Source: a virus. Taken from it: a stretch of 33,899 bases of DNA. The position numbers and the translations under genes were made by a program. The first letter of the stretch is position 1; each line of letters begins with the position of its first letter. Below are positions 3,930-10,799 of this stretch, in pieces. The notes under the pieces were generated by a model. It worked only from the letters and a program-made list of their open reading frames with translations, was not told the DNA's origin and ran no database searches. Where the stretch lies: IMG/VR virus record IMGVR_UViG_3300042525_000085, positions 1 through 33,899 of that record; one strand, written 5' to 3'.

Positions 3930-4097
3930 ATGACGCACACAGAGTTAAAAGAACTACGCAGCAAAACAGGTTTATCACAAAAAGAGTTTGGAGTTAAGTT
4001 GTTTAAGACTAGGGATAGCATTGCTAAATACGAGTCTGGCAAGTTTACGATTCCTGCTTACATGGATATTTTAGTTAAGGCTGTGTTTAGTGACTAA
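3930..4097 (+). CDS. Small XRE/Cro-type helix-turn-helix regulator
   Basis: 55 residues, almost exactly one HTH_3 domain: ELKELRSKTGLSQKEFGVKL forms helices 1-2, and the recognition region includes TRDSIAKYESGK, a standard XRE signature. There is no extra oligomerisation or protease domain, so it is more like Cro than CI. It has its own good promoter with a dyad in the spacer. It may govern the divergent early region or its own operon. The genome shows no integrase, so a lysogeny switch is not implied. Confidence 0.8.
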   Translation: MTHTELKELRSKTGLSQKEFGVKLFKTRDSIAKYESGKFTIPAYMDILVKAVFSD

Positions 4098-6105: not shown

Positions 6106-6704
6106 TAGTTTTTCGTAAGAAAGTAGACGCATGGGTAGTAACAGCTAGGGATTCAGATTGCCAAATAATTCATATCGGTGATTACAAGACACAAGAAGAA
6201 GCCAAAGTAGCAGAACAAGCATATAGAGATAAGAAGTTAGCAGATTCATACGCTAAACAAGAAGCAAAGCTAGACAGACAAGCAAAAGAGATGGTTGCTA
6301 GATATAACGTCTACCTAGAGTTTTGTGTATTGCCTAAGACTTTGACTGACATGAAGCAACATTTAGATGCTGATAAGAATACTGCGTCTAATACAATTAA
6401 AAGTTTAATGGCCCGTGGCTATTTGAAAAGCATTGTCATTAGCGACACCAGTTCACGTAAGTATTATAGCTTTGTCACAATCAAGCTAATGAGTTACGAA
6501 GAAGCATTAGAGTACGTGTCACCAAGAAAATACAAAACCAAGGCTAGTGAAAATGAAGCAACAATACCTGGTGCAAGGGTAATTAACTTTGATGACAATA
6601 AATTGACCAAGCTATACATGAACCAACGTGCAATAGATAGGGCTAATATGAAGTCACCTAAGAACTATGTAAGCGGTGCTTTAATGTCAACGGCGGATTG
6701 GTAA
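6102..6704 (+). CDS. AP2-like plus winged-helix protein, putative regulator
   Basis: 200 residues. The first 40 look like an AP2-type DNA-binding domain (WVVTARDSD, then HIGDYKTQEEAKVAEQAY). A Lys/Glu/Ala-rich helix (about 42-65) leads to a winged-helix region (about 67-125): LPKTLTDMKQHLDADKNTAS, then IKSLMARGYLKS and a beta wing. Two DNA-binding modules and no catalytic motif suggest a transcription or replication regulator. It follows the HNH protein by ATGA and precedes a 77-aa gene by TAATG, so all three are probably co-translated. The domain calls are by eye. Confidence 0.6.
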   Translation: MIVFRKKVDAWVVTARDSDCQIIHIGDYKTQEEAKVAEQAYRDKKLADSYAKQEAKLDRQAKEMVARYNVYLEFCVLPKTLTDMKQHLDADKNTASNTIKSLMARGYLKSIVISDTSSRKYYSFVTIKLMSYEEALEYVSPRKYKTKASENEATIPGARVINFDDNKLTKLYMNQRAIDRANMKSPKNYVSGALMSTADW

Positions 6705-6937
6705 TGAGAGTTACTAGCGATGGTTCAAGCGCAAGCTACTATGAGTTGCCTAAAAATGCTAGTGAGTTGCAAGACTTAATTAGCGCAAAGAATATGAACG
6801 CACAGATAGGTGAGATATTTAGGGAGTGCTACAGGTATGGACAGGCATCACATTGTGACGAGATACGAGGCATTAAAAAAATTTTATTCTATGCCAATGC
6901 TGAGTTGAAAAGATTAGCCAGTCAAGATAACTCCTAA
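6704..6937 (+). CDS. Small phage protein, possibly DUF3310-like
   Basis: 77 residues from the ATG at 6704 (TAATG with the preceding stop); a TTG two codons upstream is less likely. The block YYELPKNASELQDLISAKNMN, the GEIFRECYRYG helix and IKKILFYANAELKRL at the end give a helical protein whose order recalls the small DUF3310 family of phages. I am not sure of this. Its last codons form the left arm of the hairpin at 6914-6945. Confidence 0.65.
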   Translation: MRVTSDGSSASYYELPKNASELQDLISAKNMNAQIGEIFRECYRYGQASHCDEIRGIKKILFYANAELKRLASQDNS

Positions 6938-6945
6938 CTGGCTAG
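6914..6945 (-). terminator. Hairpin ending the pqqA transcript
   Basis: Arms TTAGCCAGT (6914-6922) and ACTGGCTAG (6937-6945) form a 9-bp stem with one G-T pair and a 14-base loop. On the minus strand, just after the pqqA stop, it is followed by AATCTTTT. It may also act weakly for the rightward operon, whose last codons it overlaps. Confidence 0.5.
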
Positions 6946-6950
6946 TTAAA

Positions 6951-7022
6951 TCATTTATTCATTACGTACATAGTAACTTCAAAGCCAAAACGCATTTCTG
7001 TAGCTGCTGGTGTTGTCCACAT
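6951..7022 (-). CDS. pqqA: PqqA, pyrroloquinoline quinone precursor peptide
   Basis: 23 residues, the same length as Klebsiella PqqA. It begins MWTTPAATEMR and continues FGFEVTMY, ending VMNK. Family hallmarks all align without gaps: Met-Trp start, Pro5, Arg11, Gly13, then Glu15-Val-Thr-x-Tyr19. In known PQQ synthesis PqqD holds PqqA while the radical-SAM enzyme PqqE joins this Glu and Tyr; the pair is then excised and oxidised to PQQ, cofactor of periplasmic methanol and glucose dehydrogenases. AAGGA lies eight bases before the ATG. The gene stands alone, opposite in direction to its neighbours, with a dyad and promoter-like sites upstream and a hairpin after it. No pqqB-E is present, so host enzymes would be needed. 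Confidence 0.9.
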   Translation of the reverse strand: MWTTPAATEMRFGFEVTMYVMNK

Positions 7023-7045
7023 GATAGTAGTCCTTAATCTGTGAT

Positions 7046-7059
7046 AAGCAAGATTGCTT
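7046..7059. promoter_or_regulatory. Dyad upstream of pqqA
   Basis: AAGCAA-ga-TTGCTT, two perfect 6-base arms, centred about 30 bases upstream of the pqqA start. It could be an operator or, in RNA, a tight hairpin in the leader. Confidence 0.35.
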
Positions 7060-7125: not shown

Positions 7126-7878
7126 ATGATTGATTTAAGATTAGGTGATTGCTTAGAAGTAATGAAGGCTATACCTAATGGAAGCATAGATGCAATTATT
7201 GCAGACCCACCATACGGCACTACTGCTTGCAAATGGGATAGCGTTATACCTTTTGAGCCTATGTGGGCAGAGTTAAAGCGCATTATTAAACCAAATGGTG
7301 CAATTGTTTTGTTTGGTCAAGAGCCATTTAGCAGCGCTTTGCGTATGAGTAACATCAAGAATTATAAATATGATTGGGTATGGGATAAAAAAATACCAAG
7401 CGGAATGAGTTATGCAAGGTATCAACCAATGCGTCAGCATGAATGTATTCTTGTATTTTGTGCAGGTAAAACTATTTATAATGCACAAGTTACATTAAGA
7501 GATAAGCCAATTAAAAAAGGTGGAAATAAATTTAGCGAAACAGCGCCTATTGCAGCTTGTAAAAATAATGTTACTTTTAAAAAAATTTATACAACAAAAC
7601 AACCAACATCAATCATACAGTTTGATAAAATAAGAAAAGGTAGCGTACATCCTACACAAAAGCCAGTAGCATTGCTTGAATACTTAATTAAAACTTACAC
7701 TCAAGAAAACGAAACTGTATTAGATTTTACAATGGGAAGCGGAACAACTGGCGTTGCTTGTAAAAATCTTAATCGCAATTTTATAGGCATTGAGTTAGAT
7801 GAAAACTATTTTAATATAGCAAAAGCACGTATTGGTGATATATTGACGCAAAGTAAAGGATATGATATAGTCACGTAA
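7126..7878 (+). CDS. Site-specific DNA methyltransferase (N4/N6, DPPY type)
   Basis: 250 residues, beta-class order: catalytic motif ADPPYG at residues 26-31 first, S-adenosylmethionine-binding motif FTMGSGTTGVACKNLNRNF around residue 200 last. Between them lie the expected FGQEPFSS and HPTQKPVALLEYLI blocks. These enzymes methylate the amino group of adenine or cytosine in a short DNA site. No restriction gene is adjacent, so it is an orphan, probably protective or regulatory. AGGA lies five bases before the ATG. It is AT-rich like the MT-A70 gene. Confidence 0.92.
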   Translation: MIDLRLGDCLEVMKAIPNGSIDAIIADPPYGTTACKWDSVIPFEPMWAELKRIIKPNGAIVLFGQEPFSSALRMSNIKNYKYDWVWDKKIPSGMSYARYQPMRQHECILVFCAGKTIYNAQVTLRDKPIKKGGNKFSETAPIAACKNNVTFKKIYTTKQPTSIIQFDKIRKGSVHPTQKPVALLEYLIKTYTQENETVLDFTMGSGTTGVACKNLNRNFIGIELDENYFNIAKARIGDILTQSKGYDIVT

Positions 7879-9250: not shown

Positions 9251-9553
9251 ATGGCAGAAATAACAGAAACAAACCCAAGAGGTGCAGGTGCGCCATTAGG
9301 CAACCAAAACTCTAGTAAAAACAATCGTTTGTGGGCTGAAACAATTAAGCGAGTTGTAGTACAAGGCGATGGTGAAACATTACGCAGAGTAGCAGAGGCT
9401 TTAATACTAAAAGCACAAGAGGGTGACATAGCTGCTATAAGAGAATTAGGCGATAGACTTGATGGCAAGTCAGTAGCAACAACAGAGTTAAGCGGTGCTG
9501 ATGGTAAAGATTTAGTCATTAATGTAATAACAGGCATAGATGACAACAGTTAG
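9251..9553 (+). CDS. terS: Terminase small subunit-like protein
   Basis: 100 residues. Starts with the RGAGAPLGNQNS turn that marks many small phage DNA-binding packaging proteins, followed by helices WAETIKRVVVQGDGETLRRV and AEALILKAQEGDIAAIREL, which look like a compact helix-turn-helix and oligomerisation core. It overlaps the large terminase gene by 14 bases, the usual order. TerS recognises the viral DNA and stimulates the large subunit. GGAG lies nine bases before the ATG. Confidence 0.75.
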   Translation: MAEITETNPRGAGAPLGNQNSSKNNRLWAETIKRVVVQGDGETLRRVAEALILKAQEGDIAAIRELGDRLDGKSVATTELSGADGKDLVINVITGIDDNS

Positions 9554-10799
9554 CACAGGGTATCAGCCACGTGACCCACAGAATGAAATACACAGGGCAG
9601 TAAGGGATAATCGGTTTGTAGTATGTGTAGCGCACCGGAGGATGGGTAAGACGGTAGCAGCTATAAACCAGCTTATACATAGTGCGTTAAATAATAAGCA
9701 GGCAAACCCACGTTACTCTTACATTGCCCCAACGTACTCTCAAGCCAAGCGAGTCGCATTTGATTACCTAGTAGAGTTCACAAGACCATTAGGTGCAACA
9801 GTAAACATCGCTGAGTTACGAGTAGACTTTATGGGCAGACGTATCAGCCTGTATGGTAGTGAGAATGGTGACAGCTTACGAGGCCAGTATTTTGATGGCG
9901 TAGTGCTAGATGAGATTGGTGACCAAAACCCAAAGATATGGAATGAGATTATCAGGCCAGCTTTAGCGGATAGAAAAGGTTACTGCTTATTTATAGGCAC
10001 ACCAAAAGGCAACAACCATTTTAAAGAGTTTAGAGATAGAGCCGAAACAGCAGAGGGTTGGAAGCTGCTAGAGTTCAAGGCAAGTCAAACAGGTTTAATA
10101 GATGCACAAGAATTGTCATCAGCCAAGAACGAGATGGGTGAAGACAAATACATTCAAGAGTTTGAGTGTAGCTTTGATTCACCGGTAGAAGGTAGTTACT
10201 ACGGCAAGCTAATGAACGAGGCTGAAGAAGCTAATCGCATTGGTGTAGTGCCTAGAGATGACTTAAGCAATACGTTTACTGCTTGGGATTTAGGTATGTC
10301 TGATAGCACCAGCATTTGGGTGGCACAAGTAGTAGGTAAAGAAGTAAGGCTAGTGGACTACGTAGAGAATCACAGTCAATCGCTAGAGTGGTATGTAAAC
10401 TGGCTACGTGATAACAACTGGCACAAGGCCACACACATATTGCCACATGACGTTGAAGTAAGAGAACTAGGAACTGGTAGGTCACGTAAAGAGATGTTGA
10501 TGGAGTCAGGGCTTGAGATAATCATAGCACCTAAACTATCAGTAGCAGATGGGATACAATCAGTTAGGCGTTTATTACCTAGATGCTGGTTTAATAAAGA
10601 AACAACAAAGCAAGGCATTGACTGTCTAAGAAACTATAGACGAGTGTATGATGAAAAGCGTAACGTGTTCTTTGACACACCATTACACGACTTTGCGTCA
10701 CACGGATCAGATGCTTTCAGATATTTAGCAGTAGGCTTAAACGAACCTGATTCGTCATGGACTCAGCCACTTAACGTAAATACTAAATGGGTAGTGTAA
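9540..10799 (+). CDS. terL: Terminase large subunit
   Basis: 419 residues. ATPase motifs: Walker A HRRMGKT (32-38), Walker B VVLDE (121-125), coupling motif GTPKGNN (153-159). The nuclease half starts around TAWDLGMSDSTSIW, giving the first catalytic Asp; later acidic residues include HDVEV and the C-terminal SDAFRYL region. TerL pumps DNA into the procapsid through the portal and cuts it. Length is normal. The start overlaps terS; the portal gene follows directly. From sequence alone I cannot say whether packaging is headful or uses a fixed site. Confidence 0.96.
   Translation: MTTVSTGYQPRDPQNEIHRAVRDNRFVVCVAHRRMGKTVAAINQLIHSALNNKQANPRYSYIAPTYSQAKRVAFDYLVEFTRPLGATVNIAELRVDFMGRRISLYGSENGDSLRGQYFDGVVLDEIGDQNPKIWNEIIRPALADRKGYCLFIGTPKGNNHFKEFRDRAETAEGWKLLEFKASQTGLIDAQELSSAKNEMGEDKYIQEFECSFDSPVEGSYYGKLMNEAEEANRIGVVPRDDLSNTFTAWDLGMSDSTSIWVAQVVGKEVRLVDYVENHSQSLEWYVNWLRDNNWHKATHILPHDVEVRELGTGRSRKEMLMESGLEIIIAPKLSVADGIQSVRRLLPRCWFNKETTKQGIDCLRNYRRVYDEKRNVFFDTPLHDFASHGSDAFRYLAVGLNEPDSSWTQPLNVNTKWVV

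Follow-up and report, generated by a model that had tools for sequence, protein, structure and literature searches.

A solo phage-borne pqqA gene in a tailed-phage contig and in dissimilar phages of methylotrophic bacteria

Introduction

PqqE, together with PqqD, cross-links a glutamate and a tyrosine of the small peptide PqqA, which is consumed in the synthesis of the cofactor PQQ. A first-pass annotation of an uncultured viral contig (IMG/VR contig IMGVR_UViG_3300042525_000085; all 33,899 bases were analyzed and are called the window here) proposed that a complete pqqA gene of only 23 codons lies antisense in an intergenic gap. Is this open reading frame (ORF) a genuine precursor gene, from which host was it taken, and what would a phage gain from a peptide that host enzymes must process? 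Here, we report the identity of the gene, its distribution in cultured and uncultured phages, its signs of selection, and a proposed function weighed against four alternatives.

Identity and genomic context

The ORF (6951-7022, minus strand; 23 codons, ATG start, TGA stop; product MWTTPAATEMRFGFEVTMYVMNK) scored above the cut-offs of both PqqA models, with 40.3 bits against PF08042 (E = 3e-10; cut-off, 21.1), the profile search that the first-pass annotation had called for, and 38.8 bits against TIGR02107 (NCBIfam, "equivalog"; cut-off, 20). No PHROG or solved-structure match was found for the 23-aa peptide. Its length falls inside the ∼20 to 30 aa expected of full-length PqqA, and every conserved position named at first reading was present: W2, P5, R11, and G13 are in place, and the core EVTMY occupies residues 15 to 19, with Glu15 and Tyr19, the residues that PqqE cross-links in known PqqA, four apart.

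A Shine-Dalgarno (SD) motif, AAGGA (7031-7035, minus strand), precedes the ATG by 8 nt. The gap is bounded by two plus-strand ORFs, a small one of 79 aa on the 3′ side of pqqA (6698-6937; ORF call) and a DNA methyltransferase on its 5′ side (7126-7878; phrog_67, E = 7e-82); pqqA is antisense to both, and the placement first described was borne out by the sequence and these neighbors. An intrinsic-terminator-like hairpin of 13 pairs with the tail ATCTTTTC (6915-6944, minus strand; 1 found versus 0.2 expected) stands directly 3′ of the pqqA stop and overlaps the 3′ end of the 79-aa ORF. On the other side, the presumed 5′ leader contains a short inverted repeat, AAGCAATCTTGCTT (7046-7059, minus strand), which was kept in near relatives, whereas more distant ones have other stems (such as TACAC..GTGTA) in its place.

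The window encodes a terminase large subunit (9540-10799, plus strand), portal, major head protein, endolysin, SSB, HNH nucleases, and DNA methyltransferases, and the contig is therefore that of a tailed phage. A profile-level check of the window for pqqE, PQQ methanol dehydrogenase, and HxlA found all three absent.

Cultured and other cataloged phages

PqqA was found by tblastn among 50,697 phage records in nine Methylophilales phage isolate records, with identities to the window peptide of 100% (P19250A), 91% (MEP301 and Venkman), 83% (MEP401 and MEP402), and 73% (four Melnitz records), and in an uncultured podovirus from Manatee Spring (96%). The sole remaining matches, two "Acinetobacter phage" records, were rejected as bacterial-type contigs with pqqABCD(E). 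The record labelled "Acinetobacter phage MD-2021a" (CAKLQF020000010.1, 105210-111263) has ppk and pqqABCD(E) and looks chromosomal and mislabelled. A commoner PqqA sequence used as the query recovered no additional phage from these records, and a Methylobacterium-type PqqA query gave nothing new among phages. Among the 50,697 records, pqqA was confined to phages of methylotrophs. The named Methylophilales phages MEP431-434, HIM624-A, phiMB624-A, and Venkman EXVC038S lie outside the isolate set, so pqqA cannot be claimed for every isolate.

Correct annotation of pqqA was found in 0/9 isolate records. No feature is annotated at the match in P19250A, MEP301, Venkman, MEP401, and MEP402, while in Melnitz and the Manatee phage the ORF annotated over pqqA is on the opposite strand; these wrong-strand hypothetical proteins were deposited at 3961-4056 in one Melnitz record and at 2067-2195 in MW202481.

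The isolates (P19250A, Venkman, MEP301, MEP401/402, and Melnitz) resemble the window in having a solo pqqA but differ from it in genome, being unrelated or only distantly related, and in the position of the gene. Indeed, the pqqA-bearing genomes are mutually dissimilar (T4-like Melnitz, Zobellviridae MEP401/402, siphovirus-like P19250A, and the group to which the window belongs), and the position of pqqA varies among them. Megablast of window positions 1 to 25000 against the phage records returned a single stretch of shared DNA, 91 bp at pqqA in P19250A (6947-7037, minus strand; 89%), and the 8-kb pqqA region of Venkman had only 85 bp in common with the Manatee phage, again at pqqA. The isolate terminases nearest to that of the window were those of the Manatee phage and Venkman (67%), both with pqqA; the next nearest were from Pelagibacter phages (45%), which had no pqqA match.

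Uncultured viruses and close relatives

IMG/VR was scanned with a degenerate DNA pattern for W..P.....R.G.EVT.Y. At least 120 contigs matched, and every match listed was a short but complete ORF preceded by a ribosome site. Gly13 was encoded by GGA in 11/120 of the matches listed, and a GGA-restricted pattern again returned at least 120 matches, from which we extrapolate to at least about 1,300 contigs with pqqA, a rough lower bound that holds if the first 120 matches listed are a fair sample. The restricted scan added 109 new loci among the matches listed, 108 of them with complete PqqA. Most of the matches listed encode MWTxPxATEMRFGFEVTMYVMNK. Other viral PqqA types (such as MKWETPDYSDIRFGFEVTMYINNK) resemble those of different bacteria in the class sample, which makes it probable that the set extends to phages of further PQQ users. 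Three loci (L166, L176, and L192) have a PqqA variant (..HRIGFEVTAYIMTR / ..MRYGFEVTAYIMTR) with several joint changes and the EVT.Y core retained, which may mark a different host species.

Relatives were also collected with terminase as the bait, independently of PqqA. The window's own group (TerL identity of at least 93%, counting the window) comprised 8 contigs with enough upstream sequence. The expectation that close relatives would retain the ORF with its Glu and Tyr held for 6/8, in which pqqA with Glu15 and Tyr19 lies on the minus strand 2.4 to 3.5 kb before terminase; it did not hold for two partial contigs (L131 and L138), which have neither pqqA nor the methyltransferase at the site and carry other small ORFs instead. 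The gene is accordingly accessory cargo, not a core gene, and dispensable there. In both contigs, a small conserved ORF (MSVLxxQxGGxHYK...; about 4010-4234 in L131 and about 1072-1335 in L138) replaces the pqqA-methyltransferase stretch, which makes the gap a place where accessory genes are exchanged. At ∼70% terminase identity, ten more contigs had antisense pqqA 1.5 to 2.5 kb upstream, and two had it elsewhere.

PqqB, PqqC, PqqE, and XoxF/methanol dehydrogenase were near pqqA in 0/252 viral loci (2.18 Mb of partial contigs; locus range only). The phage peptide must therefore rely on host enzymes to become PQQ.

Host genomes and host pqq arrangement

That the host is a methylotroph, as the first-pass annotation had supposed, was supported by four complete, streamlined 1.3-Mb genomes (G622, G858, G719, and G689; from an order sampled around genome G108), whose PqqA is 100% identical to the window peptide. 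Each has two or three scattered pqqA copies, and PqqA was present in 185/187 genomes of this host-type family (1 to 12 matches each). These four and two further host-type genomes (G833 and G749) have pqqE (>500 bits; 519 bits for PqqE of a genome with the identical peptide), a PQQ alcohol dehydrogenase above cut-off, and 3-hexulose-6-phosphate synthase (HxlA), the RuMP enzyme in these genomes. Host-type pqqE adjoins pqqC and a pqqB-like sequence. In all six genomes, every pqqA copy is >100 kb from pqqE and stands between unrelated genes; a solo pqqA is thus the host's own arrangement.

Methylophilaceae carry 3 to 12 pqqA copies with a single pqqBCDE set (PMC4109929). We infer that the host-type family is Methylophilaceae from three points: the genome size of 1.3 Mb, the multicopy pqqA that is characteristic of this family, and the identity with phages whose isolation hosts are Methylophilaceae. 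The window gene shares with Methylophilaceae pqqA (PF08042/TIGR02107) the identical 23-aa product, start, SD, length, and lack of linkage to pqqB/C/E; it differs in sitting between phage genes and in its DNA, in which 3 of 72 bases depart from the nearest host copies seen. Two features of a phage auxiliary metabolic gene were found: a genuine phage genome, with phage genes around pqqA here and complete cultured phages that carry it, and a host metabolic homologue, in the PqqA of host-type genomes.

The families of G285 and G161 also hold PqqA and were rejected as the host family. The latter (probably Methylophagaceae; PqqA in 47/57 genomes, up to 9 scattered copies) is a second group with multiplied pqqA.

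Selection and cassette structure

Viral pqqA copies evolve under purifying selection, with pN/pS of about 0.2: the ratio was 0.24 at codons left free by the search pattern (119 distinct 23-aa ORFs among the matches listed) and 0.20 in 15 ORFs collected via the terminase bait, while the other two frames of the same DNA gave ratios above 1. Glu15, Val16, Thr17, and Tyr19 were retained in 15/15 terminase-bait ORFs.

An SD motif stood ahead of pqqA in 201/201 distinct viral copies (18 expected), and TATAAT (-10) occurred in 56 of these upstreams (21 expected). Complete two-box sigma-70 promoters were not above chance (46/205 upstreams versus 50.7 shuffled), so that enrichment was seen only in the -10-like element, and a consensus sigma-70 promoter was absent from the window's own upstream gap. 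Terminator-like hairpins followed 80/210 viral copies (8.6 expected), and both neighbors were opposite in strand at 56/126 loci (44%) versus 97/1,778 control gene triples (5%). The enrichment of SD, -10, and terminator, together with antisense placement, indicates that pqqA moves as a small cassette that is in many cases self-contained. Features of a "moron" were mixed at this locus: a terminator is in place, the site is empty in L131 and L138, the gap has no consensus promoter, and -10-like motifs are enriched across copies. Stems of at least 6 pairs were present in 73/201 distinct pqqA upstreams (about 24 expected), located between the presumed -10 and the SD; their sequence shifts between relatives (AAGCA..TGCTT and TACAC..GTGTA), and an operator or a hairpin that stabilizes the mRNA may be considered among their candidate roles.

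Proposed function and alternatives

Taken together, the pqqA of the window is probably a functional phage gene that was acquired from a methylotroph of Methylophilaceae type, is selected as a self-contained cassette, and feeds host PQQ synthesis. A phage would have captured pqqA from such a host, and selection would keep it as a small cassette of ribosome site and ORF, often with its own -10 element and terminator. On infection, host PqqD/PqqE would receive the translated 23-aa peptide and join Glu15 to Tyr19, and host PqqB and PqqC would complete PQQ. With one PqqA spent per PQQ, an extra precursor gene alone could raise or maintain PQQ and in this way sustain methanol dehydrogenase activity and energy supply during host expression shutdown. 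In this account, we infer that the gene is expressed, that host enzymes process the peptide, and that the phage benefits. The phage would thereby supply a stoichiometric substrate that host enzymes convert to PQQ, keeping methanol oxidation running. The proposal of the first-pass annotation, that the gene would increase PQQ supply in infection, is compatible with all the results. The same tiny gene in hundreds of otherwise unrelated methylotroph viruses suggests that PQQ supply matters during infection.

Two studies of bacteria bear on the size of the effect. In Acetobacter, pqqAB raised PQQ by 29% and the full cluster eightfold (PMC7936290); other steps can thus limit, and the gain from extra precursor by itself may be modest. 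Of the five pqqA copies of one methylotroph, pqqA1 and pqqA3 have much higher expression than the other three, and their expression increases together with that of pqqE as PQQ output grows (PMC9851590).

Four other explanations were weighed. Neutral or selfish cargo, a mobile pqqA cassette exchanged among phages and hosts with little benefit, would fit its accessory status in near relatives and DNA similarity limited to about 90 bp at pqqA, both for the window with P19250A and for Venkman with the Manatee phage; the low pN/pS, the full retention of the SD, and restriction to methylotroph phages among the cataloged records make it unlikely. Improbable, too, is a decoy or brake: by occupying PqqD/PqqE or acting as a regulator, the peptide would slow PQQ synthesis or divert it. 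Inhibition of host enzymes is common among small phage proteins, and a substrate-like peptide could titrate PqqD/PqqE; in a decoy, however, some lineages should have lost the reactive residues, whereas Glu15 and Tyr19 were kept in all copies, including the 15 found without a motif search, and the host's own substrate has the identical sequence.

Should RNA be the product, so that the flanking plus-strand genes are under the control of an antisense transcript or a terminator structure and the ORF is incidental, the antisense position to both neighbors and the stable 3′ hairpin would be explained; selection at the codon level, the universal SD, and the many copies that are codirectional with their neighbors or at other sites make this very improbable. 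Host contamination, mis-assembly, and a chance ORF are refuted, since a PqqA-like motif is found a single time in the window and in 0/200 Markov-shuffled windows, several IMG/VR contigs with near-identical terminase have pqqA at about the same site, complete cultured-phage genomes have it, and no sign of contamination was seen in the window, unlike the MD-2021a record.

Beyond the proposed function, a broader joint reading is possible, which we put forward tentatively and at somewhat less than even chances: that a solo pqqA, acquired on repeated occasions, characterizes nearly all phages of PQQ-dependent methylotrophs, that PQQ precursor supply is a bottleneck of infection, that phages and hosts share one pool of mobile pqqA cassettes, and that the gene can mark the host of uncultured methylotroph phages.

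Prior reports and significance

Viral pqqA is already known as a kind, and the caution of the first-pass annotation on earlier reports proved apt. The Lake Baikal virus populations VP_139 and VP_266 are viruses of methylotrophs, and the VP_266 representative (2020) encodes PqqA and methanol dehydrogenase, proposed to support methanol oxidation (PMC7678222); the window differs in having pqqA alone, without methanol dehydrogenase or PqqE. A 2026 study listed viral pqqA among phosphate-cycling genes (PMC13188868). In the literature searched, which lacked most subscription journals and preprints, publications on Melnitz, MEP401/402, MEP301, and Venkman make no reference to a pqqA gene of phages, and no work linking pqqA, bacteriophage, and OM43 was found. 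Within that same literature, the solo form, the breadth over unrelated phages, the host restriction, and the systematic absence from annotation appear to be unreported.

Cyanophage photosystem genes are viral auxiliary metabolic genes for energy. Like such cofactor or energy genes, pqqA is host derived and may sustain a central energy pathway in infection; unlike them, its product is a consumed peptide substrate and not an enzyme or protein subunit. It was missed by annotation in all cultured Methylophilales phages that matched, and auxiliary metabolic genes shorter than the usual gene-caller length cut-off remain invisible. The gene could also serve as a simple DNA marker by which methylotroph phages are recognized among uncultured viral contigs. 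The claim that PQQ precursor limits energy supply in infection is testable in phage-host pairs already cultured (P19250A, Venkman, Melnitz, MEP301, and MEP401/402). If a shared cassette pool exists, some of the scattered host pqqA copies may come from phages. If expressed, this 23-codon gene would tie infection directly to methanol oxidation in highly abundant freshwater and coastal methylotrophs.
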